A stretch of 64,000 bases of DNA from Akkermansia muciniphila. GTDB lineage: Bacteria; Verrucomicrobiota; Verrucomicrobiia; Limisphaerales; BJHT01. Below the pieces are notes generated by a model. That model was not told the DNA's origin. It ran no database searches and saw nothing but the letters and a program-made list of their open reading frames with translations. Location: positions 1 through 64,000 of the forward strand of contig CAMAUZ010000010.1 in NCBI GenBank assembly GCA_945861535.1, written 5' to 3'. Shown one piece after another: positions 143-59,527 of this stretch (position 1 is its first letter; each line of letters opens with the position of its first letter). The position numbers and the translations under genes were made by a program.

Positions 143-3100
143 TTATGGCATCATATAGAGATCGCTCAGATAACCGGCGGCGAGCAAGAGTGCGTCGTTG
201 GCAGGGCCGTAGTTGATGCCGGAATCGATGCTTAGAGATCGGCCGCGGCGCAGCACCGTCTCGTAAATCTCGATGAGGCCGTAGTTATTGATCGTTTCCA
301 GGTTGAGCGCCACATCGCCTTCCCAGCGTCTGCCCGCCTGCGACAGGATGCTGGCATCGGTGTTGACGGAGTTGTTGAAGAGGTCCCCGACCCGCTGGTT
401 AAACGGATTGATGCCGGCAAGCACACGTTTTATCCACCCTTCCGCGAGCGCCGGTTTGGTCCAGGCAGACCAGTTGGTTGCCGTCGCCGCGGGTGTCGCG
501 CTGTAGAGTGGATGGAGCGGGTTCATGGGGCGGTAGCGCAGGGTGACATAATTATCCACCAGCACCTGGATGCCCGCGCCGCCGAGAGTGAAACGGGGCA
601 GCCCCAGTCCATTGGTCAGGCTGGTCCAACCGGTCATGGTGGGATTCTCCGCATTGACCTTCAGGGGCAGGCCGTTCACCGGCGGGGCAATACGCCATTG
701 ATATTCGTATTGGGTGGTCCGGGCGGCGAGGTCGCCGGTATGCTGGAAGGTCAGCAATTCGTTCAATGGGTTGAGCGAAGAAAGTGGATTAACTTCCCCC
801 ACATACAGCGGACCGCTCACGCGCAACACATGGACAAAGACCGGATCGCCGGCCTGGGTAAAGGCCGTGCCATTGCCGGCGAGGAGCGTGACGAAGCCGC
901 TGCCGGGACCAACCGCACTCAAGGCATAGGAGTCCACTGCCGTGTTATCGTCAGTCACTTCGACGAGATTGGTAATGCCCACGGTTCGTCTGAGGCTGGG
1001 GTTGGGAATCGGAGTACCGGGTCGAGTCGGATCGTCGGAGTAAGTCTCGACCGTCACCGCCAAGCCATGGATGGCTCCGTCCCATTTGGACTTGTCTCCA
1101 TCCGCGGCCGGACAAAGCGCCTTCACGGTGGCCAGATCAGCCGTGTCGAGCACGTTGAGCAGGACATATTTCTCGCCCAGCGCCTGATCCTGAAACTCGC
1201 CCTTGAACACGAGGTGCCCCTTGGTTCCACGATTGGCGTCGAAGAAGAGCCGTTTGGCCAGGTGGGGCGGGAGATTGGGGAAGAAAACCTTGCCTTGGTA
1301 ACTCTCGGTTCGCACTCCGGCGGGCAGTTTTTCCAACCCCTGTCCCGCAATGTCGTAGGCTTTCTCCACGGTGGGGTCGTGCAGAATCACACTTGGTGTC
1401 TTGGTCGAAAAATTGGTGCCGATGGATTGTTGGTAGAGAATCTGCAAGCTTGTCTGCCCACGCACAGCCGGGAGGCCCAAGGTCGGAACGGTGAGAGTCT
1501 GTCCCGGAGCAAGCGCGGGGGAACTGGCCGGCCAGGTGGGGCGATACACAATGTCCAGGGCCGGGGTGGTTTTCGTCGCGGGGTTGCCAGCGTAGGTTCC
1601 GTTGGTGAGCGGCCGCAGGTAGGGAACAATCGAGCCAGGTTCCGGCGGGCTGGCGATGCCGGGCCAGGCGAAGCTTTCCTCGGTCGGATAGTAGAACCGC
1701 ATGGTGAAACTGTTCGTGTTGGTCGGAGACTGGGCGAGATAGGGCGGACGGTTGGTGTAGGTCACGTTCGTGCCGGCATAGCGGTTGGGGCTGGTAATGG
1801 TCAGTGGCCCCTGACTCACGACGGGGCCACTGTTTCCCACGCTGAGAGTGAAGGTGTTCGTCACCGTGCTGCCATCCCCCGAGTCGGTGATCCGCAAGGA
1901 AACGGTGTTGGTAACAGCAACCGTGGGAATGCCGCGGACAGTCAGCCGTTCAGCCACCAATCCTGCCGGCAGCGGACTGAGATTGGTCATCGTCAGGGTA
2001 TCGCTCCGGCGCGAGACCTGAACGTGATGGGTGAACGGTTGGTTCACCACGGCGGTAGCGTTGGAAAGCGCCAGAAAAACACCGGCCGCCGGACTGTAAC
2101 TGCCCGCCTCGAATTTCGGGAGGCCGGAGTGCAAGCCACGATAGACCCGGAACTTATTCTTCCGGTCGCGATAGGTGAACCTTTGATAATGCCCGTTGGG
2201 ACCGCCGCCATCGGTGGCCGGGGTCCAGTTCGGCGGCAGATTGAAGGAGTTGGTGGGCGGTTCGGTGTTGTAGTTGATGGCGCTCTCGCCTTCGCCCTCC
2301 ACCGGGGGCGCCAGCAGCGGCAGGGGCATCGGGCCGGTCAGTTCCTGGTTGCCAGCCTCCACGATGTAGTCGAAGAGGATGCCGGCCCCGGGCTTCTCGC
2401 GCAGCACTTTGAAGACAGTCATCGCCGGCCGGCCATCAGCACCGGTGTAGTCCAGCAACACGAACGGGGCGGAGGAATAAGTCGCTCGCTCGCCGACGAG
2501 TACTGCCGGGACCGTTGTCTGGGTCAGGTTCAGGTCATCCCGCAGCGCATAGGCTTGCCCGGCGTTCATCAGAGCATGTTCTTCATTGGGATTATAGCCG
2601 GGCGCGCTGGGGTCATTCTGAAAATAGATGGCGCCGCCGGCCTCCAAGCTGCCCAAACCCCCGCTCCCCTGGTTGCTGGCGAGGATGATTTCCCGCGGGT
2701 TGACCGGCCACTGGAGGGTGTACCGACCGATGACCGACGGCCAGTAAACGGTTTTGAATCCCTTGGTCAAATCCGCCGCATTCTTGCGGAACCACCAAAC
2801 TTCCAGCGAATTGGCACCCGGAATGGCATTGACCGGGATGAGCGCTCCCTGGTTGGCCACCTCGAATCCTTCCGCCAACGGGTCTTTATAGGCCGTGGGA
2901 TGATAGGAAGTTCCCGCGCTGGTGCGCAGATGCCCGGCGAGATACGAATCGCCTGCTGCCGCACCGAGTTCGCGGTCCGGTGCGGGGATGCGGGTTCCTA
3001 CATTGACCGTCTGACTGACGACCCGGGGCGAGACCAGGTCATTGGGCCAGAGGATCGAGCCCGCAGTCGGTGCCGACACCACGGACGGCGCAGTGGTGAC

Positions 3101-5431
3101 CAACGGATCGGCTGGCCGGGGCAGCGTGGGCACCGCCGGGAGCAGGAGCGCAGCCAGATTGGTGCCGATGTTCCCGGCGGCCCCAGGCGGCAGGAGATGG
3201 TTGGTGAAACCGACGTCTCTGTAGGTTGGAAGGTAGGTGCCGGAGGGGATTGTGCCGGCGTAAGGAACCACGGCGGCGGCCGCGTCATCAAAAGTCAGAT
3301 TCAGGTTTTGGTCAGCTTGTTCCCCGGAGTCCGTCATCAGAGCACATACCTGCCCGCGCGGGCCGACCAGGAAGATATTCACGCCGTAGATCCTACCCGA
3401 GTTCAGCCCGGTCACGTTAACCCGCACGGTACTCACGGCGTTCGTGACACCCGACACCGTGATGCTGGAGGGAAACGGGATCGCCGTACCAACCCCATCT
3501 GGGAAATTAATAACTCCCGGGCCGCTGATCGTGTTGGTCGTGGACGAGCCGGTTGCCGCATTGGTCTGCACCACCACCAGCTGCCAGGAGGTGATGTTAC
3601 CCCCGTAACCCTCCCTGTCGCTCACATACAGTTTCCATACCCCGTTCACGCCGCGAGTGCGGGCCGCCAGGTAGTTAGTGTAGTTGACGTAGTTGGTGAA
3701 GGCGGCGTAGCTGGTCAGATAGCGGTTGTAGTTGCTGAGGGCGGCCGGGTAATTGAGATAGTCGGCGACGGAAGTCAGGTTCGTCGCGACAGTACCGGCG
3801 AAGTTGGTGGCCTTCAGGTTTACATCCAGCCAGGAGAATACCCGCTCGAAGGCGACCGCTTCTCCGGCCGTGAACCGCACCAACGCCCGGTGCGCCGGCA
3901 CCGCGGCGTCCAGGAACGAGTAGAACGCAAATTGTTCCGTGAGCTTGGCCCGCGGGCGATCAAATGGATCCTGAAATTCGATCACCGGCGCATTGTCATT
4001 CGGGAGCGGCACGGCGGTCAGCCGGGCTTCCTCCTCCGTGTGGACCACGGGGCGCACGTAATGGCTGTAGCTGGCGGGATTTGCCGGCCAGAGCTGCTGG
4101 TAGCGCACCAGGCGCAGGGGCCAACGGAGACCTTGGACGCCTTCCTGCAACCAATGCACAAGGACATCGTTCTGATTCAGGGTTTCCCGCGTGGCATGAT
4201 ACTTTCGCTGTTCCGTGCCGGGGATGGTCTGTTGATAGGTGAAGGACTGCACGTCCGGACGGAGGATCGGCTCGGGAATCAGCCGGCTGTCGTCCTGCCC
4301 GTCCGCGAAGGCCCGCAGGCGATCCCCCAGCTCGACGGCGACATCCGCCGGATTGGGCTGCTTGATGACATCGACGATCTCAAAGCCGAGGTGTTGTTTG
4401 GTCTGGCCGTCCGGCTGGGTGTCCCCGAGCAACTCGACGAATGCACGCCCTTCGGCGTTGTAGGCGCGGACCTGTTTTTGAAGGTCATCGACCCACAGCG
4501 TCCGCAATTCCTGCAGCAGGTTGGTCTGCGCCGTGATGAACGATTGTCCCTCCGCCACATACTGATTGGCGACCGTGCGGGGGAAGTTGTTGTTGTAAAT
4601 GATGTTCACCGCCGACACCCGGGCCGCGGGCAAGGCCACCGGTTTGCCGGTGTCGCGGAACACGCCCTCGGTCCAGTACATCTGCTGCGGCTGCTTCACC
4701 GCGCTGCCTGAGACGATGTGCCGAACTAGTTTGAGCGGGTAGAAATTCGGCCCGTCCCGGTAGTGCGTTTGGTTGGTGACAAAGCCTGCCGGGGTGCCGG
4801 TGGCAAGCACCACGGGGACCGCCTTTCTCCAGACCACATTCACCGGGCCGGACTGAATGGCGAAAACCACCCCCGCGTGTTTGCTCCAGTAATAACCGGC
4901 CCCGGCGTGGTTGTTGGTGGTGTGCGGCTCGGGCAGCCAGTACTGGCTCGGAAGCTCGGCGACCAGGGGATTTCCCGCCACGTCCTCCGACGGCGGGAGG
5001 AGACGAGAGCCAAACTGGGCAGAGGCGGAACGGCTGAAGAAAGTCGAACCAAGCTGGGCCGTTTTCAGAATGGCGACCACCACCTCGCCGCTCCGGGCGA
5101 CCGGCAGGCCAATATCGCGCGCGTTGGCCACGTAACTGAGGGTGTTGTTCAGCCGGGCCGTGTTGGTGGGGCCGACCAAGCCGGTGAACGAATACACGCC
5201 CTGAAACTGGTTGGAAGTTGCCGGGTTTACCGTCTGTCCACCGCCGCCCGTGGGGATGCGACCGTCGGAACCGGGCGGCACGTTGCGAGTGCTGGAAAGC
5301 GGCACGCCATTGGTTGTGCGCCAGTTGTAGCGGGTCGAGTCCTGCCGGATTTCCGGGCGAATCTGGGCGGCAGCGTCCGTCACCACGAGCTGGCAGACCA
5401 ACAGGAGGGCGGCAATTCGGGAAATTCGCAT
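143..5431 (-). CDS. Giant secreted multidomain protein, probably C-terminally truncated
   Basis: About 1762 residues from the chosen ATG at 5431, where a signal peptide starts (MRISRIAALLLVCQLVV, cleavage near DAAAQ). A longer frame to 5509 adds residues that do not look like a leader. The body is rich in Thr, Asn and Tyr, with runs of TNY near residues 560-600. It carries stretches resembling proprotein-convertase P-like or Ig-like beta-sandwich domains (VSDREGYGGNITSW; TGLNSGRIYGVNIFLVGPRG) and cadherin-like text (LRITDSGDGSTVTNTFTLSV). It is probably exported or surface-attached; no enzymatic motif is recognised. The protein ends abruptly at NDALLLAAGYLSDLYMMP, directly against an IS4-type transposase. 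Related verrucomicrobial proteins, as I recall them, continue well past this point, so the 3' end is probably lost. Confidence 0.85.
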   Translation of the reverse strand: MRISRIAALLLVCQLVVTDAAAQIRPEIRQDSTRYNWRTTNGVPLSSTRNVPPGSDGRIPTGGGGQTVNPATSNQFQGVYSFTGLVGPTNTARLNNTLSYVANARDIGLPVARSGEVVVAILKTAQLGSTFFSRSASAQFGSRLLPPSEDVAGNPLVAELPSQYWLPEPHTTNNHAGAGYYWSKHAGVVFAIQSGPVNVVWRKAVPVVLATGTPAGFVTNQTHYRDGPNFYPLKLVRHIVSGSAVKQPQQMYWTEGVFRDTGKPVALPAARVSAVNIIYNNNFPRTVANQYVAEGQSFITAQTNLLQELRTLWVDDLQKQVRAYNAEGRAFVELLGDTQPDGQTKQHLGFEIVDVIKQPNPADVAVELGDRLRAFADGQDDSRLIPEPILRPDVQSFTYQQTIPGTEQRKYHATRETLNQNDVLVHWLQEGVQGLRWPLRLVRYQQLWPANPASYSHYVRPVVHTEEEARLTAVPLPNDNAPVIEFQDPFDRPRAKLTEQFAFYSFLDAAVPAHRALVRFTAGEAVAFERVFSWLDVNLKATNFAGTVATNLTSVADYLNYPAALSNYNRYLTSYAAFTNYVNYTNYLAARTRGVNGVWKLYVSDREGYGGNITSWQLVVVQTNAATGSSTTNTISGPGVINFPDGVGTAIPFPSSITVSGVTNAVSTVRVNVTGLNSGRIYGVNIFLVGPRGQVCALMTDSGEQADQNLNLTFDDAAAAVVPYAGTIPSGTYLPTYRDVGFTNHLLPPGAAGNIGTNLAALLLPAVPTLPRPADPLVTTAPSVVSAPTAGSILWPNDLVSPRVVSQTVNVGTRIPAPDRELGAAAGDSYLAGHLRTSAGTSYHPTAYKDPLAEGFEVANQGALIPVNAIPGANSLEVWWFRKNAADLTKGFKTVYWPSVIGRYTLQWPVNPREIILASNQGSGGLGSLEAGGAIYFQNDPSAPGYNPNEEHALMNAGQAYALRDDLNLTQTTVPAVLVGERATYSSAPFVLLDYTGADGRPAMTVFKVLREKPGAGILFDYIVEAGNQELTGPMPLPLLAPPVEGEGESAINYNTEPPTNSFNLPPNWTPATDGGGPNGHYQRFTYRDRKNKFRVYRGLHSGLPKFEAGSYSPAAGVFLALSNATAVVNQPFTHHVQVSRRSDTLTMTNLSPLPAGLVAERLTVRGIPTVAVTNTVSLRITDSGDGSTVTNTFTLSVGNSGPVVSQGPLTITSPNRYAGTNVTYTNRPPYLAQSPTNTNSFTMRFYYPTEESFAWPGIASPPEPGSIVPYLRPLTNGTYAGNPATKTTPALDIVYRPTWPASSPALAPGQTLTVPTLGLPAVRGQTSLQILYQQSIGTNFSTKTPSVILHDPTVEKAYDIAGQGLEKLPAGVRTESYQGKVFFPNLPPHLAKRLFFDANRGTKGHLVFKGEFQDQALGEKYVLLNVLDTADLATVKALCPAADGDKSKWDGAIHGLAVTVETYSDDPTRPGTPIPNPSLRRTVGITNLVEVTDDNTAVDSYALSAVGPGSGFVTLLAGNGTAFTQAGDPVFVHVLRVSGPLYVGEVNPLSSLNPLNELLTFQHTGDLAARTTQYEYQWRIAPPVNGLPLKVNAENPTMTGWTSLTNGLGLPRFTLGGAGIQVLVDNYVTLRYRPMNPLHPLYSATPAATATNWSAWTKPALAEGWIKRVLAGINPFNQRVGDLFNNSVNTDASILSQAGRRWEGDVALNLETINNYGLIEIYETVLRRGRSLSIDSGINYGPANDALLLAAGYLSDLYMMP

Positions 5432-39875: not shown

Positions 39876-42800
39876 TTACGGCTGCGGGGTCGCGCGGTAG
39901 AAGCGGCGGGCCGCGCCGGACGACGTGGTGTCCACGTAGATGTAAGGGCTGGTGGGCAGCGTGACGGTGGTCAACGGAGTCCAGACCGTGGGGGTGCCGA
40001 GGACGGTCGCGAACTCGACCTGATAGCGGGCGCCGATCGGCCCGTTGATGATGACGCCGCCGAAGTAAGCGCCATCCACCAGCGCGACGGGCACGTCCAT
40101 GCTGACGGCCTGGCCGGCCGCGTTACGAACTTCCAGGCTGTAAGCGCCGAGATCGGCGGGCTGGAACGAGGGCAGGGTCAACGTGAGGCTGTTGGCCCCG
40201 AGGATGTTGGTCCCGTTGATCCGCCATTGATACGTCAACGGCCCGGTGCCGAAGATCGCATTGGTGGGCGCGGCGAGCGTTAGAGCACCGCCGCTGCTGA
40301 CGGTCGCACCTGGCAGGCCGTTGCGGAACAGCGTGTCGCCGATGACGGGCGGCGCGGTGATGGTGACATTGGCGACCGAGCTGGTCACCGAGCCATTGGC
40401 ATTACCCGCGACGAGCGTGTAAGCGCCGTTGGCGACCTCGACCATGAGCTGGAGCTGGCCGTTCTCGACCAATTCCGTGATGGACGCGCCAGCCGGGACA
40501 CCGGCGGCACCGAAGGAACCAGCGCCGCCGTGCATCTGGTCGGCGATGAGGTAGGAGCGGTAGCCAAGGATGGCGGTCATATCAATGATGCCGGACGCCT
40601 CTTCGTCCTGCGTGAGGAAGCCGGGCTGGCCGGTGGTCACGAGGTTCGGGCGGTGCTGGCTCACGAGGACGAGCGAATCCGTGGCGAGGACATACTTCCA
40701 CGTTTTGCCGTTGTGGCTCTGATTGCCCACGTCTTCCTGGATGAGCAGGTTGCCGTCGTTGTCGAGGCCGAGGTTGTCACCCATTTTGACGCCTTCGGTG
40801 CCGTCGAGGAGCATGTCAATCACGCCGCCCATCTCGGGGTTGGCGATGTCGTTGAAGCGCAGACGCCAGAGACGGCTGGGGAGGGCGAAGCTCGCGGTGG
40901 TGAGGAAATAGAAGTCCCGTGGATTGGTCAGGCTCCACAGGCCGTCTTCGACGCGCGAGAAGGCGGTGACGCCGTTCGTGTTGCCGAAGATTTCCAGGCC
41001 ATCGAAGGTCTGGTTGCTCGCATCACCGAGGTTGAACAGGGTGAAGTTGCGCTGAACGGAGGTGGTGCCCGCCACTTCCTGCGCGAGGCCAGCGACCGCC
41101 ACGCCGTAGAGCGAGCCGTTCATCAGACCGGCCTTCTCCACTTCGTTCGTGCCAGTGGCCTGCTTGGTGCCGATGTAGAAATACACCTGCGAGTCCGTCG
41201 TGCCGTCGTCGTCGAGGCCGGCGACGATGGTCTTGTCCTGCGCGAACGGGCTCGCGACGATGTTTTCCCAAGAAGCGCGGCCGAAGCGCGGGAGCTGCCA
41301 GGAGTTGCCGGCTTCGGGACCAGTGGCGATGTGCGCCCAAGCACGGGACTCAGAGGAGAACTCTTCACCGTTCATGAAAAGCTTCTGCTGCGAACCCTTG
41401 CCGGTGGCGGCGTTGAAGAACGCCGTCGGAACGGGCAGGTCAGCGGCGCAGAAGCGGCCCATGAGGACGTTCGTGCCGAGCGCGTAAACGGAGGTGTTCG
41501 TATTGAACACATACACGTTGGTGATGAGGTCGCTGCCGTCGAGCACCGCGAGGTTGCTCTTGGCGATGATGAACTTGGTCACGAAGGCACCCTTCGCGCC
41601 GTGGCGGCGGGCGATGCCGCTGGCCTCGTTGATTTCGTGGTTGGCCAGCACCGTGAAGGTGCCGTTGCCGTTGTCGTAGGCACCGAGTCCGTCCATGACG
41701 CCGGCCGCGCGGCGGGGCGTGCCGTTCGGGTTCGTGCCGGCGAAATCACCCACCGAGATGAGCGAGATGAACGCGTAGCCGGAATCCACGGCCTCTTGGA
41801 AGGGCGGGCGGCTGCTGCTGGGACCAGTGTGGTCGAGGCCCGCGCTGCCGCGCACGTTGTTGAGCGTGAGCGAGGGACCGTTCGCGCCGGGGATGGCGAC
41901 GCCGTTCTTGAACCATTGGAACGAGGTCGCACCAGCGACGTTGGCCATGAGGTTCACCGTACCGCCCGCATTGACCACCGTGTTCACCGGCGGCTGCGTG
42001 TTGAAGACCGGGGAGACGGGCTGGGGCGGGGCGCCCGGAGTGGCGGCGCCGGCGGTGCTGAGCACGCCGTAGGCCGAGAGCGCGGTCCAGTCGGCCGCCC
42101 AGTTTTGGGAACCGAAAGCGCCGACGAAGTTCACCGGCGTGAGGAAGCCGTCCACCGGCAAGGTCTTGGCCAGGCCGGCGAGCGCCGGGCTGGCGGACTG
42201 CGGACGCGGATCGAGCATCCCGGTGGCGCTGCGGCTGATGCCCATGAGCATCGGATCGGCGATGAGGTTGCTGCGCGTGGTGTCGGTGAAGAGCACGTCG
42301 CTGTTCAAGACATTGAGGTTGGCGACCGTGTTGCCGGCGGTGAAGCCGAACCAGAGGTTGTTCTCGAACTTGAGGATGCCGTTGGTCAGGTGCAGACCGG
42401 ACTTGGCATCAATGGAGACGCCGCGCTGCGCGTAGTCGGTGAAGATCGAGTTGAAGAAGCGGGGGGCGGCGTATTCGCGGATGGTGAACACGTTGTTGTT
42501 CGCGCCGCCGGAGCCGACGCCCGCACCGATGGCGGTGGCGTTATAGACCGCGAAGTTCGCGATCGGCGCCGCGCTGGTCGCCAGACCGGTCGGCTCGCCG
42601 TTGAGTTCGAAGCCTTTGTCGCGCGCGTCGGGCGACTGGATGCTGAACCAGAACTGGTTGCGGCCGCTGTAGCCTTGGTCGGCATCAAACGCGTCGTCGT
42701 CGTTGAACGCGCTGACGAGGTAGCGGGTGTTGACCGTGCCACCGAAGAACTCGAAGCCGTCGTCCGCCGTGGCATAGGCCTCGATGAACTCCAGCGTCGT

Positions 42801-44771
42801 GCCGCGGCCCACGCCGCAGACCGAGAGGCCGTTCAGTTCCTTGTTGGATTCGAGAATCTTGCCGCCGTGCCGGATCGACACGTAGCGCAGCACGCCGGAG
42901 TTGTCGTTGTCATCGCTGCCACCGAAACGGTGGACGTTCTGCCCGCCGAGGACCACGTCAGGCAGGCCTTCGAAGATGTCATACTTGGGACTGGCCGCCG
43001 CGCCGCCCGCGTCGCTCGGGGTGTTGAGCCCGGCCTTGCCCAGCAGGACGATGCCGCCCCAGAGACCGCGCTGGGTAAGCCCGAGGTTCGGCCACGCACC
43101 GGCGGTGCCGAGGTTGTCGGCTTCGGCGGTGAACACGATGGGGTTGTTGGCCGTGCCGTTCGCAAAGAGTTTGCCACCGGCGGTGATGAAGAGCGCGCCG
43201 AAGACGCCGGGCGCGCCGTCCTTGCCCTTGACGATGGTGCCGGCCTCGATGGTGAGCGTCTGGCCCTGCTTCACGTAGCAGTAGCCGTTGAGCACATAAA
43301 CATTGGTGCGCGACCAGCGGACGGTGGGGCCGGCCGCGGTGAGCGAGGCGTCGGTAACTTGCACGATGTTCGCCGGGGCGCGCTGCGGCGTGACGCCGAG
43401 CTGCGAGAGGGCCGTCCAGCCCGCGAGCCAGAGGTTGTTCTGATCAAACGCGCCCTTGAAGGCGGCGGATTGGAGGAAGCCATTGTTGGGCGCCATGAGG
43501 CTGCTGACCAAGGCGGGGCTGCCGGCCTGCGGACGCGGGTCCAGCCCGCCGTTGGCCGTGCGGCTGATGCCCATGAGCATCGGATCGGCGATGACGTTGC
43601 TGCGCGCGGTGTCGGTGAAGAGGACGTCGCTGTTCAAGACATTGAGGTTCGCGACCGTGTTGCCGGCGGTGAAGCCGAACCAGAGGTTTTCGCGGAAGTC
43701 GAGCAGCCCGCTGTTCAGGTGCGTGAGGGACTTCGCATCAATCGAAATGCCGCGCTGGGCGAAGTCGGTGAAGATGGAGTTGTAGAACCGGGGGGCGGCG
43801 AATTCGCGGATGGTGAACACGTTGTTGTTCGCACCACCGCTGCCCACGCCCGCGCCGATCAGCGTGGCGTTATAGACCGTGAAATTGGCGACGGGCGCCG
43901 CGCCGGTGGCGAGGCCGGTCGGCTCCCCGTTCAATTCGAAGCCCTTGTCGCGGGAGTCCGCGGCCTGGATGCCGAACCAGAACTGATGTTGCCCGCTGTG
44001 GCCCTGGTCGGCGTCGAACGCGTCGTCGTCGTTGAACGCGCTGACGAGGTAGCGGGTGTTGACCGTGCCGCCGAAGAACTCGAAGCCGTCGTCCGCCGTG
44101 GCGTAGGCCTCGATGAACTCGAGCGTCGTGCCGCGGCCCACGCCGCAGATCGAGAGGCCGTTCAGTTCCTTGTTGGACTCGAGGATTTTGCCGCCGTGCC
44201 GGATCGACACGTACCGCATCACGCCGGAGCTGTCGTTGTCATCGCCGCCGCCGAAACGATTGACGTTTTGCCCGCCGGTGACGACGTCGGGGAGGCCCTC
44301 GAAGATGTCATACTTGGGGCTGGCCGCCGCGCCGCCCGCGTCGCTCGGCGTGTTGAGCACGGCCTTGCCGAGCAGGACGATGCCGCCCCAGAGCCCGCGT
44401 TGCAGGAGGGTCAGATTCGGATAGGCGCCCGCCGTGCCGAGATTGTCCGCCTCGGCCGTGAAGACGATCGGGCCGCTGGGGGTGCCGTTGGCGAAAATCT
44501 TCGCGCCGGCGGTGATGAACAGCGCGCCGAAGACGCCGGGTGCGCCGTCCTTGCCCTTGATGATCGTGCCGGCCTCGATGGTGAGCGTCTGGCCCTGTTT
44601 CACATAACAGTAACCATTGAGCACGTAGGTGTTCGTGCGGGACCAGTGGATGCTGGGGCCGGCCGCGGTGAGCGTGGCATCGGTGACTTGCACCACATCG
44701 GCGAGAGATTTCTGACCCCACAGCGTTGCCGCCGCCAGCAAGGCCATGCTTCCAAGTTTTTTCAGTTTCAT
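39876..44771 (-). CDS. Large secreted PhoX/DUF839-like protein with duplicated N-terminal module
   Basis: 1631 residues with a signal peptide (MKLKKLGSMALLAAATLWGQ). Two nearly identical modules of about 440 residues follow (each begins VQVTDA-LTAAGP and contains VLNGYCYVKQGQTLTIEAGT, GGKILESNKELNGLS, FIEAYATADDGFEFFGG, FNDDDAFDADQG). They look like right-handed beta-helix modules. Next come an Ig-like domain (MANVAGATSFQWFKNGVAIP) and a PhoX/DUF839-type phosphatase-like region (FISLISVGDFAGTNPNGTPR, GTFTVLANHEINEASGIARR, LFMNGEEFSSESRAWAHI, GNLLIQEDVGNQSHNG, SGIIDMTAILGYRSYLIADQ). A second Ig-like domain and the shared C-terminal module ending RRFYRATPQP finish it. It probably acts outside the cell on phosphate esters; the assignment rests on motif style and is not proven. 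Confidence 0.85.
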   Translation of the reverse strand: MKLKKLGSMALLAAATLWGQKSLADVVQVTDATLTAAGPSIHWSRTNTYVLNGYCYVKQGQTLTIEAGTIIKGKDGAPGVFGALFITAGAKIFANGTPSGPIVFTAEADNLGTAGAYPNLTLLQRGLWGGIVLLGKAVLNTPSDAGGAAASPKYDIFEGLPDVVTGGQNVNRFGGGDDNDSSGVMRYVSIRHGGKILESNKELNGLSICGVGRGTTLEFIEAYATADDGFEFFGGTVNTRYLVSAFNDDDAFDADQGHSGQHQFWFGIQAADSRDKGFELNGEPTGLATGAAPVANFTVYNATLIGAGVGSGGANNNVFTIREFAAPRFYNSIFTDFAQRGISIDAKSLTHLNSGLLDFRENLWFGFTAGNTVANLNVLNSDVLFTDTARSNVIADPMLMGISRTANGGLDPRPQAGSPALVSSLMAPNNGFLQSAAFKGAFDQNNLWLAGWTALSQLGVTPQRAPANIVQVTDASLTAAGPTVRWSRTNVYVLNGYCYVKQGQTLTIEAGTIVKGKDGAPGVFGALFITAGGKLFANGTANNPIVFTAEADNLGTAGAWPNLGLTQRGLWGGIVLLGKAGLNTPSDAGGAAASPKYDIFEGLPDVVLGGQNVHRFGGSDDNDNSGVLRYVSIRHGGKILESNKELNGLSVCGVGRGTTLEFIEAYATADDGFEFFGGTVNTRYLVSAFNDDDAFDADQGYSGRNQFWFSIQSPDARDKGFELNGEPTGLATSAAPIANFAVYNATAIGAGVGSGGANNNVFTIREYAAPRFFNSIFTDYAQRGVSIDAKSGLHLTNGILKFENNLWFGFTAGNTVANLNVLNSDVLFTDTTRSNLIADPMLMGISRSATGMLDPRPQSASPALAGLAKTLPVDGFLTPVNFVGAFGSQNWAADWTALSAYGVLSTAGAATPGAPPQPVSPVFNTQPPVNTVVNAGGTVNLMANVAGATSFQWFKNGVAIPGANGPSLTLNNVRGSAGLDHTGPSSSRPPFQEAVDSGYAFISLISVGDFAGTNPNGTPRRAAGVMDGLGAYDNGNGTFTVLANHEINEASGIARRHGAKGAFVTKFIIAKSNLAVLDGSDLITNVYVFNTNTSVYALGTNVLMGRFCAADLPVPTAFFNAATGKGSQQKLFMNGEEFSSESRAWAHIATGPEAGNSWQLPRFGRASWENIVASPFAQDKTIVAGLDDDGTTDSQVYFYIGTKQATGTNEVEKAGLMNGSLYGVAVAGLAQEVAGTTSVQRNFTLFNLGDASNQTFDGLEIFGNTNGVTAFSRVEDGLWSLTNPRDFYFLTTASFALPSRLWRLRFNDIANPEMGGVIDMLLDGTEGVKMGDNLGLDNDGNLLIQEDVGNQSHNGKTWKYVLATDSLVLVSQHRPNLVTTGQPGFLTQDEEASGIIDMTAILGYRSYLIADQMHGGAGSFGAAGVPAGASITELVENGQLQLMVEVANGAYTLVAGNANGSVTSSVANVTITAPPVIGDTLFRNGLPGATVSSGGALTLAAPTNAIFGTGPLTYQWRINGTNILGANSLTLTLPSFQPADLGAYSLEVRNAAGQAVSMDVPVALVDGAYFGGVIINGPIGARYQVEFATVLGTPTVWTPLTTVTLPTSPYIYVDTTSSGAARRFYRATPQP
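42040..44696. repeat. Intragenic tandem duplication of about 1.32 kb
   Basis: Copy 1 spans about 43372-44696 and copy 2 about 42040-43371 on the minus strand. Protein identity is high throughout and long DNA stretches are identical, for example around 42242-42361 and 43568-43687. The unit is a multiple of three, so the frame is kept. Confidence 0.85.
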
Positions 44772-52834: not shown

Positions 52835-55759
52835 TCAAAAATCCAGCGTCAGCGACAGGCCGAAGATGCGGCCCTTGCGGATGGACGAATACAGCGGGCC
52901 GGTCGCCTCCGCGCCGTAGGTGCGCTGGAAGACCGGGTCGGTGAGATTTCTGGCGGTGAACTTTACTTTCACATTCGGCCGCAGTTTTTGGGTGAGGACA
53001 AAATCCATGGTCAGCGGCGGCTGCTCGTAGATGTCCGGCCCCTTGCCGAGCGCGATGTAGATGCGCTCGCCGGTCAGGTTCATCGTGAGCGAGGCGCTGG
53101 TGCCGCTGCGCGGGTTGTTGTAGCCGAGATCGAAGTTCGCGATGTAGGGCGACTGGTCGTAGAGCGGGCGGGTGGGCGGCGTGGCGGGGTCGTTGGAGCG
53201 TTTGTTGAACAGCTCGATCGTCGTCAATGGCACCTCGGATTGGAGGTAGCTGAAGTTGCCGCCGAGGCTCCAGAAAACGAGGGACGGATCGAGGAAATCC
53301 AGGGCCTTGCGGGCCTCCAGTTCGATCCCTGACACCGTGGCTTTCTCGCGGTTGATCGCGCTGATTTTGCCGCCGTCCAGCGTGCGCAGGTATTTCTCGA
53401 TGGGCTGGTCGAGCTGCTTGTAAAACACGCCGAGGGAGAGGATTTCGCCCGCGCGGGGGAAGAACTCCCAGCGCGCGTCAAAGTTGTCGATCAACGAGCG
53501 TTTCAGGTCCGGGTTGCCGACGAAAATCTCGTCGCCGGACGGATCGTAGCTCTCGTAGTTGGCGATCTCGCGGAAGGTGGGGCGCGCGATGGTCCGGCCG
53601 TAGTTGAGCCGGAGGTTCATGCGGGACGAAAGGTGGAAGACGAGGCCGGCCGCGGGCAGGGTGTCGTCCGCCAGCAGCGGCTTGGAGGGCACGTCGTTGT
53701 TGGTGATGCGGATGTCGGTCTTCTCCTGGCGCACGCCGCCGATGAACCGCAGCCAGCTCGTCACCGGCAGGTCGAGCATCAGATACAGCGCCGCGGAATC
53801 GGACGTGCCGGTGTAGCGCTGGTTGCCGAAGGGGGACGAGAGCGTGCGGGCGGCGAGATTGTCGAGGTACCGGTTGGGGTCGCCCACGGCGTCCCAGCCC
53901 GCCGAGCCGGCATAGGTGAAGGTGCGCTCGGCGAAGGTGCGCTCGGAGCGGCTTTGAAACCACCCGGTCTTCAACTCCGCCTCGCGCCCCGCGAACCCCG
54001 GCAGCGGCAGCGTGAAGTCGAGCTTCGTGTTCACATTGTCCTCGTCGAGGTTGCGGAAATACCGCGTCGGCTGGTTCGGCGCGGGCAGCGAGTTGTCGAA
54101 GTAATAGGACTTTCCGCCGCTGCCGTCGTCGGCCGAGTAGTAGTTGAAGAAGCGCAGATCCGGCTCGGCCTGCGAGGTGTTCGAGAGCGCGGTGAGCCAG
54201 TCCAGCCGGGCGTCGCCCAGCCCCGTGAACCACGGCAGCGCGTGCCGGCCCTTGAACTGGAAGGTGTGCAACTGCCGCTCGGTGTATTGCAGTATGTTGG
54301 CGTGGGTGATCGTGTCGGGCGAGTTGCCGGTGGTGAAATCAAAGCCCTCCTGTTGCCGCACCATGTCCTCGGTGCTCTGGTTGTGCAGGAAATTGAAACC
54401 CAGCTCGTGCCCCGGCAGCGGCGCCCACGCGAAGTTCGCCACCGCACCCCAGCTCGTGTCGATGATCGAGCGCGAGTCGCGAAACTGCGTGCGCGGGCTC
54501 AGGCGGCTGTCGTAGCGGGCGTTGACGCCGTTTTCGTAGAACGAAAAGGCGCGGTTGTAGTTCGCGCCCACCATGAAACCAAACGGGCGGCCGAGGAAAT
54601 TCAGCGTGTCGCCGAGCGAGAAGGCGTGGCTCTGGTTCAGCGGCGACGTGCCCCGCGTCGGGCCAAACTGCGAGCTGTGGAACTCGCGGATGAGCCGGGC
54701 GCTGTTGCCGGCGACATTGGCCGGCGGCGTGTTCCGCACCGCGTCGGGCATCTGCCGCGCGCCGTCGTCCATCGCCGCCCAGTCCAGGCCGCCGCCGCGA
54801 TAGGTCAGGAAGCGGTCGTTCAGGCTGGCCTGCGTGTTGTAGCTCGTGCCGGCCGAGAGGGTCATGAACCGCCGCGCCGGAAAGGATTTGGTGATGATGT
54901 TCACCGACGCGCCCGTGAAATCCCCGCGCTGGTCCGGCGTGAAGGTCTTGGTCGTGACGATCTGCTCGATCTGGCTGGCGCTGAAGAGATCGACCTGCGC
55001 GGACTTGCGATACGGATCGGCGCTGGGCAGTTCCGCGCCGTTGAGGGTCGTGTTGTTGTAGCGGTCGCTCAGGCCGCGCACGACGACGAACTTGCCATCC
55101 ACCACGCTCGCCGCCGTGAGCTTCGACACGATGTCGCCCGCGTCTCCGCCGGCCGAGCGGGCGATCTGTTCCGAGCCGATGGCATCGGTGACCGCGGCGG
55201 CTTTTTTCCGTTCCTCGAATACGGCGGCGATGGTGCTGGGCTTGACCACGGCGAGCGGCGGCGGGGCCGGCGGCGATTTGACCGGCGGGGGCAGATTGAC
55301 GGAAGCCGCGGGCACCGGGGCCATGGCGGGCAGGAGAGACTTTGGCGCGCTCACCGTCGGGGCCAGCGACGCGGTGTTGGTCCCGGTGCCGCCGAACACG
55401 CCGCCCCCGGTAATGCCCTGGCCCGGTGGGCGTTTGGGCGCGGTGAAAAACGTGCCGCCCAGCGCGGGCGGCGCGCCGGGCACGGGCGCGGAGACGGTCG
55501 CCGCACGCGCGGGTCCGCCCGGCGGCGGGGGCTGGTTGGGCTGCTGGGGCTGGGGCTGGGTCGGCTCCGGCAGCTTCGGTTCTTCCTTCGGCTTTTCCTC
55601 CTCCTTCTTCGTGGCCACGAGGTCCATCCACTTGAGCACCGGGTCGAGCTTGCCGCTCTTGACCGCCCACAAGGCGATGAGGCCGAGCGCGGCCGCATGC
55701 ACCGCGAATGAAATCGCGGCGCTGGTCTTGTCCGCCTTTTTCTTTCGTTCGGCACGCAT
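52835..55759 (-). CDS. TonB-like N-terminus fused to a TonB-dependent outer-membrane receptor
   Basis: 974 residues. The N-terminus is not a cleavable leader but a TonB-type anchor: basic MRAERKKKADKTSA, then one helix (ISFAVHAAALGLIALWAV) in which Ser17 and His21 reproduce the S-x3-H spacing that is essential in TonB. A Lys/Glu/Pro-rich stretch and a Pro-rich spacer reach residue 170. From about 175 a receptor plug follows (STIAAVFEERKKAAAVTDAI, VVRGLSDRYNNTTLNGAELP, SASQIEQIVTTKTFTPDQRG, GASVNIITKSFP). The rest is a beta-barrel with a C-terminal aromatic (FGLSLTLDF). No separate TonB C-terminal domain is present. It is the third gene after exbB and exbD, where tonB normally lies. It may import an iron chelate or, given the context, an organophosphate. 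Confidence 0.85.
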   Translation of the reverse strand: MRAERKKKADKTSAAISFAVHAAALGLIALWAVKSGKLDPVLKWMDLVATKKEEEKPKEEPKLPEPTQPQPQQPNQPPPPGGPARAATVSAPVPGAPPALGGTFFTAPKRPPGQGITGGGVFGGTGTNTASLAPTVSAPKSLLPAMAPVPAASVNLPPPVKSPPAPPPLAVVKPSTIAAVFEERKKAAAVTDAIGSEQIARSAGGDAGDIVSKLTAASVVDGKFVVVRGLSDRYNNTTLNGAELPSADPYRKSAQVDLFSASQIEQIVTTKTFTPDQRGDFTGASVNIITKSFPARRFMTLSAGTSYNTQASLNDRFLTYRGGGLDWAAMDDGARQMPDAVRNTPPANVAGNSARLIREFHSSQFGPTRGTSPLNQSHAFSLGDTLNFLGRPFGFMVGANYNRAFSFYENGVNARYDSRLSPRTQFRDSRSIIDTSWGAVANFAWAPLPGHELGFNFLHNQSTEDMVRQQEGFDFTTGNSPDTITHANILQYTERQLHTFQFKGRHALPWFTGLGDARLDWLTALSNTSQAEPDLRFFNYYSADDGSGGKSYYFDNSLPAPNQPTRYFRNLDEDNVNTKLDFTLPLPGFAGREAELKTGWFQSRSERTFAERTFTYAGSAGWDAVGDPNRYLDNLAARTLSSPFGNQRYTGTSDSAALYLMLDLPVTSWLRFIGGVRQEKTDIRITNNDVPSKPLLADDTLPAAGLVFHLSSRMNLRLNYGRTIARPTFREIANYESYDPSGDEIFVGNPDLKRSLIDNFDARWEFFPRAGEILSLGVFYKQLDQPIEKYLRTLDGGKISAINREKATVSGIELEARKALDFLDPSLVFWSLGGNFSYLQSEVPLTTIELFNKRSNDPATPPTRPLYDQSPYIANFDLGYNNPRSGTSASLTMNLTGERIYIALGKGPDIYEQPPLTMDFVLTQKLRPNVKVKFTARNLTDPVFQRTYGAEATGPLYSSIRKGRIFGLSLTLDF

Positions 55760-55938: not shown

Positions 55939-56364
55939 TCACGGTCCGGCGGCCTCCGTGGCCAGGCCGACTTTGTTCACGTTGGCCTGCGTGAGGATGT
56001 CGAGGACGGTGATGACCTTCTGGTATTGCACGGTGAGGTCTCCGCGCACGACCACGCTCAGGTCGGGATCGGACTTGCGCAGTTCGATGAGCACGCCGCG
56101 CAGTTCGCGCACCGGCATCGGGCGGCTGTTCAGGAACAGGTCGCCGTTCTGGTCCACCGTGAGGTTGTTGATCTTGGGCGGCGGGTCCTTGGGATTGTTC
56201 GCCGCCGAAGGGAGGTTGATGGAGATGTCATTCACCGCCGGCGCGGTGGTGATGATGAAGATGACCAGCAGCACGAACGCGAGATCGAGCAGCGGGGTGA
56301 TGTTCAGTTCGCTCATCGTGTGATGCTGCGACTGGGACAACTTTTTTCGGCGGCGAAAAGCCAT
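55939..56364 (-). CDS. exbD: ExbD/TolR-family biopolymer transport protein
   Basis: 141 residues with one N-terminal transmembrane helix (LNITPLLDLAFVLLVIFIIT) containing the proton-path aspartate at position 27. The periplasmic domain follows (INNLTVDQNGDLFLNSRPMP, LSVVVRGDLTVQYQKVITVL). It starts 6 bp after the ExbB stop and forms the ExbBD motor that uses proton-motive force. The next gene, 179 bp on, is the TonB-receptor fusion. Confidence 0.92.
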   Translation of the reverse strand: MAFRRRKKLSQSQHHTMSELNITPLLDLAFVLLVIFIITTAPAVNDISINLPSAANNPKDPPPKINNLTVDQNGDLFLNSRPMPVRELRGVLIELRKSDPDLSVVVRGDLTVQYQKVITVLDILTQANVNKVGLATEAAGP

Positions 56365-56370
56365 GGGAGA

Positions 56371-57153
56371 TTAATTCACCGCGAGTTCCGGCCGGCCGAC
56401 GCCGAGCGAGCGGATGGCGTCGGCGACCTCGTCGGCCAGCGCGCGGTTGTCCACGTACTTGTGTTCCATGGCGGTGGAGAGCTCGGTGTTGAAGTTGTCC
56501 AGCTCGTGCGTGGTGTGCCGGATGGTCGTGATCATGAAGTTGAAGGCGAACATCGCGGGGATGGCCACGAACAGCCCGACGACCGTGGCGATGAGTGCGC
56601 CCGCCACGCCGGGCGCCATCGCCGTCAGGCTGGCCGCCTTGGAAATCGCGATGCCCGAGAAGGTTTCCATCACGCCCCACACCGTCCCCAGCAGGCCGAT
56701 GAACGGCCCGCCCGCCACGGCGGTGGACAACACAATCATCCCTTTCTCCAAGGCCAGCGCCTCCGCCCCGGCCGTGCGATCCATCGTCACGAGCACCGAT
56801 TCGAACGAGGCGCTGCTGATCTTCGTGTCACCCTTCACTTTCACCGGATTGTTCTCCCAGTGAAACGCCAGTTCCTCGGCTCCGGCCAGATACACTTCAT
56901 AGGCTGGCGCGCCTTCGAACTCCCGTTTGGCGCGGAACAGTTCCAACGGATCGCGGGTCTCGCGGAACGCGGCGAAGAAGGCCTTGCTCTGCCGCCCCGC
57001 CTTCGCCAACTGCCGCCATTTGTTGATGATGACCGTCCAGCTCACGAGCGAACAGATGGCCAGCAGACCGATGGTGATCTTGCCCTCCATGGTGGATTTC
57101 TCGAAGGCGAACGAGAGCGCGTTGGCCAGGATGGGCGTAAAGGATGGGTCCAT
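56371..57153 (-). CDS. exbB: ExbB/TolQ/MotA-family proton channel protein
   Basis: 260 residues from the ATG at 57153. A first helix (ITIGLLAICSLVSWTVIINK) is followed by a cytoplasmic loop and the two C-terminal helices with family signature text (GMIVLSTAVAGGPFIGLLGT, VWGVMETFSGIA, AMAPGVAGALIATVVGLFVA, IPAMFAFNFM). It energises outer-membrane transport with ExbD and, by context, with the TonB-like helix of the fused receptor. A longer frame to 57366 is rejected because the extra residues lack any membrane character and overlap the regulatory repeats upstream. Confidence 0.92.
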   Translation of the reverse strand: MDPSFTPILANALSFAFEKSTMEGKITIGLLAICSLVSWTVIINKWRQLAKAGRQSKAFFAAFRETRDPLELFRAKREFEGAPAYEVYLAGAEELAFHWENNPVKVKGDTKISSASFESVLVTMDRTAGAEALALEKGMIVLSTAVAGGPFIGLLGTVWGVMETFSGIAISKAASLTAMAPGVAGALIATVVGLFVAIPAMFAFNFMITTIRHTTHELDNFNTELSTAMEHKYVDNRALADEVADAIRSLGVGRPELAVN

Positions 57154-57819: not shown

Positions 57820-58091
57820 AGGGGGGGGCGGCTTAAAGAGACTGAAATGCGACAAGTCCCCGCACTCCCCATGGCCACGCCGCAGGTTCGCGCGTGTGAA
57901 AACTACCTCCCCCCGGACCAATCCCCATTTCTTATCCGTGTCTATCCGTGTCCCTCCGTGGTTGTCACATTTCCATTTGGAAGTCCGGTTTTGCGTCAAT
58001 CCGGCAACTGTCATGTTACGGCCGGGTGACATCTGGAGTTTCGAGCAACTCACCTTTGACAAGCACGCGGCGGCTGGGGACAAGGACGGGG

Positions 58092-58646
58092 ATGAAGACC
58101 GCATTACTTATCGCCGCCACCGCCGCCACGACTCTGCTAGCAGCGTGTCAAAACACCACGCAGCGCGTGGACCGCTTTGACAACGTCCGCATCCAGCAGA
58201 TGGAGGCCAACCATGTCACCCGCGGCGTGTTTGAGAAAGTCGTCGTCTGTCTCAACGCCCGCCGCGAAATCCGCCCCGGCGGCGCTGCCGATCACTTCCT
58301 GCTCCTCGAACACACGCCGATTCCCGACTTCACCCTCGCGCCCGGCGAGTCTTTCACCCTGCTGATTGACGGTGCCCGTCACACTCTGGCCCCGACGAAC
58401 TCCCCCGCCGCCGTCGTGAGCCGTCCGGGCTTCACCACCCTCACCTTCCGCACCACGGCCCCGGTCTTTGTGGACCTCGCCAACGCCCGCAAAGTCGAAC
58501 TGCGGCTCCGGGGCACCACCAGCGTGCTCGAGCGCCGCCTCGCCCGCGCCAGCATCGCCGAGTTCAAATCCTATCTCCTCAAATACTACCAAAGCCCGCC
58601 GGCTCCGCCCGACGCCCCGGTCGCCCAAAACCTCCGCAAGTCTTGA
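58092..58646 (+). CDS. Predicted lipoprotein of unknown function
   Basis: 184 residues. The leader MKTALLIAATAATTLLAACQ has a lipobox (LLAAC), so the mature protein is a lipoprotein. The rest is a small soluble domain (GVFEKVVVCLNARREIRPGG, FTLLIDGARHTLAPTNSPAA) with no recognised family. The ATG at 58092 is supported by AAGGA at 58082-58086. It is followed 23 bp later by a membrane-anchored coiled-coil protein and probably shares its transcript. Confidence 0.75.
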   Translation: MKTALLIAATAATTLLAACQNTTQRVDRFDNVRIQQMEANHVTRGVFEKVVVCLNARREIRPGGAADHFLLLEHTPIPDFTLAPGESFTLLIDGARHTLAPTNSPAAVVSRPGFTTLTFRTTAPVFVDLANARKVELRLRGTTSVLERRLARASIAEFKSYLLKYYQSPPAPPDAPVAQNLRKS

Positions 58647-58669
58647 GCGCCTCCACCTTCTCACCTGCC

Positions 58670-59527
58670 ATGGACAATAAAATTGCCAGTTACGGTCTCG
58701 TCGGCGTCAGCGTGCTGCTGGCCATCGGTCTCTTCCTCCGCCACAGCTCCGCCACCGACGCGCAGAAAACCGCCGCCGATCGCGAGGAGAAACTGCTCGG
58801 CGCGCTCAAGGTGCTCGAAGCCCAGGGCACGTCCCTCCGCGGCGAGGCCGACTTGGTCACGGAACGACTCAAGGCGAAAGCCGCGGAAGCCGGCACCTTT
58901 TCCAACAAGGTGGAGACGCTCACCGCCGAACTAACGCAAACCCGGCAGGGTCTCGTTCAAGCCACGGCGGCCATCGAGACCGTGAAAGCCACCGTGGTTG
59001 CCGCCCAGAATGAAACCCGCGCCATGGAATCCCGGGCCGTGGCCGAGCGCGCCCAACTGGAAAAGGCCCTCGCGGAATTCCAGCGCGCCGTGAAAGACCG
59101 CGACGCCGCGCTGGCCACTGCCGGCCAGGCCAACGAGCAACTCGCGCGACAAGCCGAGCAACTCACCGCCGAACTCACCCGGAAGCAGACGGCCTGGGAG
59201 GACTTGCGCACCCAGACGGCGGCGAAAGAACAGCAACTCCTCAGCCTCCGCGCCGAGCGCGATGCCCGGAACGCCAGCGACAATCTGCTTGCGGCAAAAA
59301 ACCAGGAATTGGAGCGCCAGTTGCACGACCGCCAGTTTCTCCAGGAGCAAATCGCCCATCTCAAATCCTTGCCCGCACCCACCGTCCGCCCGGCCGCCGC
59401 CCGGCCGTCGGCTCCGGATTCAGCAACCAAAACCGTCACCCCGAAACCCTCGGGCGCGACGGTCATGGAACTGCGACGCGACGGCACCGTCGCGCTCGTC
59501 CCCGTAACTCCCCCGGCCCGCCGTTGA
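58670..59527 (+). CDS. Membrane-anchored coiled-coil protein
   Basis: 285 residues from the ATG at 58670; a TTG at 58643 that overlaps the preceding stop is the alternative. One N-terminal helix (IASYGLVGVSVLLAIGLFL) anchors about 210 residues of almost continuous coiled coil (KLLGALKVLEAQGTSLRGEA, AQLEKALAEFQRAVKDRDAA, ELERQLHDRQFLQEQIAHLK). A Pro/Ala/Thr linker and a short beta-like tail (MELRRDGTVALVPV) follow. It is probably a periplasmic structural or spacer protein; the function is unknown. Confidence 0.75.
   Translation: MDNKIASYGLVGVSVLLAIGLFLRHSSATDAQKTAADREEKLLGALKVLEAQGTSLRGEADLVTERLKAKAAEAGTFSNKVETLTAELTQTRQGLVQATAAIETVKATVVAAQNETRAMESRAVAERAQLEKALAEFQRAVKDRDAALATAGQANEQLARQAEQLTAELTRKQTAWEDLRTQTAAKEQQLLSLRAERDARNASDNLLAAKNQELERQLHDRQFLQEQIAHLKSLPAPTVRPAAARPSAPDSATKTVTPKPSGATVMELRRDGTVALVPVTPPARR

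Follow-up and report, generated by a model that had tools for sequence, protein, structure and literature searches.

It has long been asked how the Ton motor conveys force to the plug of an outer-membrane receptor. One obstacle is that TonB engages its receptors only transiently and has many of them to serve. In the window analysed here, a stretch of 64,000 nucleotides from a genome labelled Akkermansia muciniphila and placed in the Verrucomicrobiota by its relatives, a TonB-type anchor and a receptor are joined in one gene. This raises the question of whether such a receptor is driven through its own anchor by the motor encoded next to it, or whether its N-terminal helix serves as an export signal or as a tether.

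The fusion gene and its motor

The fusion gene is a single open frame of 974 amino acids plus stop, without an internal stop. Its start codon is the first one in frame behind the preceding stop, and if translation began at the next methionine (M45), the export signal would be lost. The gene, its parts and its neighbours are the following:

52835..55759, minus strand: fusion gene with TonB-type anchor, proline-rich linker, plug and barrel (ORF, Pfam, AlphaFold2)
55658..55723, minus strand: transmembrane anchor, about residues 13-34 (AlphaFold2, conservation)
55711-55709, minus strand: S17 codon of the anchor (sequence)
55699-55697, minus strand: H21 codon of the anchor (sequence)
55232..55657, minus strand: proline-rich linker, residues 35-176, predicted to be disordered and without a TonB-box-like motif (AlphaFold2, motif scan)
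54770..55231, minus strand: plug region, about residues 177-330, with PF07715 match (Pfam, AlphaFold2)
52838..54769, minus strand: beta-barrel, about residues 331-974, PF00593 (Pfam, AlphaFold2, Foldseek)
55939..56364, minus strand: exbD/tolR-like motor gene (PF02472), sister to TolR (Pfam, tree)
56371..57153, minus strand: exbB/tolQ-like motor gene (PF01618), conserved start 57153, stop 56371, with a Ser-x3-Trp motif (Pfam, tree, sequence)
39876..44771, minus strand: partner gene, 1631 aa, with two beta-helix repeats; a homolog adjoins receptors of both kinds, fused and unfused, in several phyla
57948..58646, plus strand: divergent lipoprotein-like gene, Met start probably about 58065, kept beside several fusion loci
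58643..59527, plus strand: coiled-coil gene after the lipoprotein gene; a similar pair lies beside other fusion loci

The protein begins MRAERKKKADKTSAAISFAVHAAALGLIALWAV, with residues 17-21 reading SFAVH, i.e. Ser-x3-His, and 33 of the 131 linker residues from 46 to 176 are prolines. Pfam matches the plug (PF07715) at residues 184-270 (E 3e-05) and the barrel (PF00593) at residues 470-938 (E 5.9e-31). The TonB C-terminal domain (PF03544/PF13103) gives no match in this protein even at E 1 and none in four other fusions at 0.01, and the TolA C-terminal domain is absent from the fusion proteins. The AlphaFold2 model, which was based on an alignment of 21 receptors (mean pLDDT 75, pTM 0.73), has a helix at residues 2-34 and disorder at 36-175, followed by the plug and a 22-strand-type barrel. 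According to Foldseek, the closest solved folds to the receptor are TonB-dependent transporters, including FecA, PfeA and PhuR, with E down to 5.8e-28. The first-pass annotation, which had described one polypeptide with a Ser17-x3-His21 helix and a proline-rich spacer that run into plug and barrel in place of a TonB C-terminal domain, is thus correct in all of these parts. Among the nine plug proteins of the host genome, this gene alone is fused.

The same annotation had placed the gene in the tonB slot after exbB-exbD. This holds for the adjacency, as exbB and exbD lie directly upstream on the same strand (the gap between ExbD and the fusion is 180 bp, greater than in some relatives), but not for their identity as an ordinary ExbBD pair. 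The top scores of the two motor proteins go to TolQ/TolR models. Furthermore, in both the ExbB and the ExbD tree, the motors of the fusion loci form one group with that of a second locus of the host genome (C70, described below); this group is sister to TolQ/TolR of the same genomes and separate from the ExbBD that belong to ordinary Ton systems or to unfused receptor operons. A grouping of the window's ExbBD with those of ordinary TonB systems was rejected, since the trees place the window genes beside TolQR. A Ser-x3-Trp motif is present in all 27 readable ExbB sequences. In E. coli structures, this pair (ExbB S34/W38, TolQ S28/W32) contacts the Ser-His of TonB/TolA (PMC12215075).

Some further features of the locus were observed. 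Linker residues of about 88-115 (window 55400-55500) carry a motif like TRRAVAxDAPxAxGxTFFxDxR that is kept in most fusions, whereas the surrounding linker is not conserved. The C-terminal region of the 1631-aa partner resembles a PhoX-type phosphatase by eye, with no Pfam match there, and a relative of its beta-helix accompanies the receptor family in Bacteroidota, Acidobacteriota, Gemmatimonadota and Idiomarina. The pair of lipoprotein-like and coiled-coil genes (window 57948-59527) is also found beside the fusion loci L130, L045 and L123, and the lipoprotein also near L044. A promoter and terminator scan gave no signal beyond shuffles.

Conservation of the fusion and origin of its anchor

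The first-pass annotation suggested looking for other receptors with TonB-like N-termini beside exbBD, and such receptors exist. An initial survey of 58 relatives yielded four further fusions with 44-49% identity, each behind exbB-exbD. We then used residues 1-340 to search 146 genomes of the window's order and residues 1-183 to search all 320, and found the architecture in about 35 of the 320 genomes, covering 12 families (counted from the search rows). As the fusion recurs in genomes down to ~44% identity, including one that consists of a single contig (G097), chance and assembly error can be excluded. Outside the order, the anchor was not detected in the phylum and class samples, though receptor relatives are present there.

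All 30 distinct fusion copies examined have exbB and exbD of the TolQR-like type directly upstream, compared to 0 of 69 unfused relatives, where L063, entered among the unfused, is the G108 fusion split by a TAG. The histidine of the helix is invariant (30/30), which agrees with the known weight of this residue in TonB/TolA (PMC12215075); the serine is kept in 24 fusions and replaced by alanine in 6. For the anchor, comparison with two relatives gives dN/dS values of 0.20 and 0.35; the linker has 0.16 and 0.25, the plug 0.32 and 0.33, and the barrel reaches 0.59 and 0.68. The low values for anchor and linker argue that the fused N-terminus is under constraint by purifying selection and is not drifting.

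Genome G001, of the same genus and 95% complete, is without the fusion, so that the locus is patchy even inside the genus. In fusion L232 (G108:C40), a TAG lies between anchor and linker with intact exbB-exbD neighbours, which may be a sequencing error or a recent break.

The anchor itself is homologous to that of a family of stand-alone TonB proteins of the same order. The first 65 residues of the fusion align with the N-terminus of this family (hhalign 98.8%, E 4.6e-17, 64 columns), whereas the signal-peptide ends of unfused receptors, used as a control, match neither profile (0.3% and 0.4%). Together with the invariant histidine, this homology supports the earlier interpretation of the helix as a TonB anchor. 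When anchor and linker are used as a query, the matches are mainly ORFs of about 220-300 aa (ordinary TonB) and of about 960-1130 aa (fusions). At the level of sequence, this is one anchor with two kinds of cargo.

The stand-alone family occurs in up to 37 of the 146 order genomes, a count whose weakest matches include a fusion N-terminus. In the host genome, it is represented by the second locus (G000:C70), which has the order exbB-exbD-TonB(252 aa)-exbD. The 252-aa protein has an SAVFH helix, a linker of lysine, glutamate and proline, and a TonB_2 (PF13103) C-terminal domain. At this locus (L111, G000:C70:13500-20000, 2378-4807), the two exbD genes that flank the TonB differ from each other, and a large filamentous-haemagglutinin-like secreted protein adjoins.

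We also compared the D-box, which is the ExbD-binding strand of E. coli TonB (PMC10907165). Its counterpart is clear in the stand-alone family (KIAVEMVK-like) and partial in the fusions. The hydrophobic-polar pattern lies at the same place in 13 of 30 fusions and in 17 of 23 unfused TonB proteins, compared to about 1 in shuffles, and in 17 of 30 fusions the D-box is degenerate or unrecognised.

Unfused sister receptors and energisation in cis

A natural control is provided by the unfused sister receptors, which have the same beta-helix partner. The nearest of them begin with a signal peptide, followed by CarboxypepD_reg and commonly by a TonB box. By motif inspection, an AxA-Q-like signal-peptide site is present in 67 of 70 unfused receptors and in 1 of 30 fusions; unfused relatives from Acidobacteriota and Bacteroidota also have ordinary signal peptides. 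CarboxypepD_reg is missing from the fusions. The TonB-box motif set matches 43 of 70 unfused receptors (e.g. EEYEVTA) and none of the 30 fusions, although the motif is short and a highly divergent box could escape it. This is in line with the earlier suggestion that no TonB-box exchange is needed, as far as the box itself is concerned. The gene neighbourhoods differ as well. Where the flank sufficed, the unfused receptors lie in an operon DUF3450-exbB-exbB-exbD-tonB-TPR-receptor, and the TPR gene adjoins most unfused receptors of the order. No fusion is adjoined by this TPR gene, and the dedicated operon tonB is missing from the fusion loci, whereas the downstream beta-helix partner is common to both kinds of receptors. 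As the fusions, with one exception for the AxA-Q-like site, are without a recognisable signal-peptide site, CarboxypepD, recognisable TonB box and tonB/TPR operon yet keep the same partner, the sequences indicate that the fusion replaces the whole trans module with an anchor in cis.

In a receptor tree built on complete receptors, the fusions form almost one group, with weak deep support. Since three unfused receptors (L012, L022 and L023) nest within the fused group with support of 99-100 (receptor tree, vs L235), barrels have probably moved between cis and trans energising, with the N-terminus and the gene set changing together. Such nesting suggests that the cis and trans systems have exchanged barrels or that reversions have occurred between them. 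L022 and L023 are labelled Akkermansia muciniphila, yet their receptors and operon are typical of the window's order and the species label looks doubtful.

We consider it likely that the fusion is a transporter energised in cis, which would function without TonB and without a TonB box. The N-terminal helix would remain in the inner membrane and bind the ExbB/TolQ-like pentamer via His21 (and Ser17), and the proline-rich linker would span the periplasm and enter the plug of the outer-membrane barrel where the TonB box would sit. The proton-driven motor would pull or twist the linker and thereby partly unfold the plug, and the substrate would pass after this remodelling, with neither a TonB-box recognition step nor a separate TonB. 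We infer that the helix stays uncleaved, that the chain reaches across both membranes and that force acts in cis. By arithmetic, an extended proline-rich linker of about 140 residues would measure roughly 40 nm, enough for a periplasm. In BtuB, the first 50 residues of the plug unfold on pulling via the TonB box (PMC5413942).

Alternatively, the helix could be only an export signal that is cleaved, and the receptor would be powered in trans by a separate TonB of the genome. Apart from a TolA-like protein, the host genome codes for three or more TonB_C proteins, and these separate TonB proteins could act on the fusion. In addition, receptors normally have cleaved signal peptides, the helix is the sole export signal of the fusion, and a hydrophobic stretch behind a positively charged N-terminus is compatible with both roles. 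However, the homology of the helix is with TonB anchors rather than with receptor signal peptides, its histidine never varies, the AxA-Q-like site is nearly confined to unfused receptors, and a TonB acting in trans would have no recognisable box to grip. Moreover, motor genes adjoin every copy, and a long proline-rich linker under purifying selection would be purposeless. We thus regard a cleaved signal as unlikely. Somewhat less probable still is that the anchor serves to position the receptor at its own motor or to link the two membranes, as in Tol-Pal, with the transport force coming from a separate TonB. This would fit the TolQR-like type of the motor, as tethering and constriction of the outer membrane are functions of Tol systems, and the complete D-box is not clearly retained in all fusions. 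Yet no TonB box is recognisable, the fusion loci lack the dedicated tonB that the unfused sisters have in their operon, and the fusion has a complete transporter plug and barrel beside the same beta-helix partner as transporter systems. Lastly, an error of assembly or annotation, or a decaying gene formed by the accidental joining of a tonB stump to a receptor, could be suspected in a draft MAG of 169 contigs with a relative (G108) that has a TAG in the linker. The comparative data refute this: about 35 genomes from 12 families, one of them the single-contig genome, have the same junction, the other fusions read have no stops, and anchor and linker are under purifying selection.

As to the cargo of a transporter energised in cis, we infer with more reserve that the substrate might possibly be phosphorus-related. 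Upstream of its motor genes, the fusion genome L044 has a PhoR/PhoB-like pair, and such a pair also lies near the Bryobacteraceae relative L028; the best score of the regulator is to PhoB, below the curated cut-off. Phosphate-selective porin genes (PF07396) adjoin two Pontibacter relatives, and the convergent neighbour in the window is a choice-of-anchor-I protein with a phytase-like domain.

If energisation in cis is true, the contact between motor and receptor would be permanent and repeated docking and release of TonB would not be essential. The force would have a fixed direction and would always enter at the plug N-terminus, and the result would be a one-motor-one-receptor system suited to structure work. 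The fusion would further pose the problem of how BAM can assemble a barrel while the other end of the chain sits in the inner membrane.

Comparison with known systems

The first-pass annotation knew of no characterised example of a TonB-receptor fusion, and our search of open-licence papers likewise found no description, with a missed report being possible. The available parts of reviews and of a paper on TonB/TolA evolution, which reports an anchor swap to vWA domains, do not mention such a fusion.

Like the transporters energised by TonB-ExbB-ExbD in E. coli (FecA, FepA, BtuB), the fusion has the plug and barrel fold and proton motor genes, and like TonB of these systems it has a Ser-x3-His transmembrane anchor and a proline-rich periplasmic linker. 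In contrast to them, anchor and receptor are one chain without TonB_C and without a recognisable TonB box, and the motor is nearer to TolQR. This TolQR-like motor connects the evolution of Tol and Ton. With TolQ-TolR-TolA, the fusion shares a motor that is sister to TolQR of the same genomes and an anchor with the SHLS-type Ser/His. It differs in that there is no TolA C-terminal domain and no TolB/Pal beside it, and the force would end at the receptor plug; the host genome's own TolR-TolA-TolB locus lies elsewhere, separate from the fusion locus.

TTP-type TonB2 systems (DUF3450/TtpC-ExbB2-ExbD2-TonB2-TPR), like those encoded around the unfused sisters, energise the same receptor family with the same beta-helix partner, but have a separate TonB, and their receptor has a signal peptide, a CarboxypepD domain and a TonB box. 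The order's unfused TonB family (exbB-exbD-TonB-exbD, e.g. L111) has a homologous anchor and juxtamembrane region and the same motor type, but ends in TonB_2 (PF13103) where the fusion ends in plug and barrel. In vWA force transducers (PMC12204202), too, a TonB/TolA-type anchor, here of the SHLS kind, is found on a new C-terminal domain beside TolQR-like genes; that domain, however, is a soluble vWA fold and not an outer-membrane barrel. Judged from its sequences, the fusion is a conserved gene family that joins an inner-membrane motor anchor to an outer-membrane gate. Compared to all of these systems, it presents known modules in a new, conserved and mechanistically telling arrangement.
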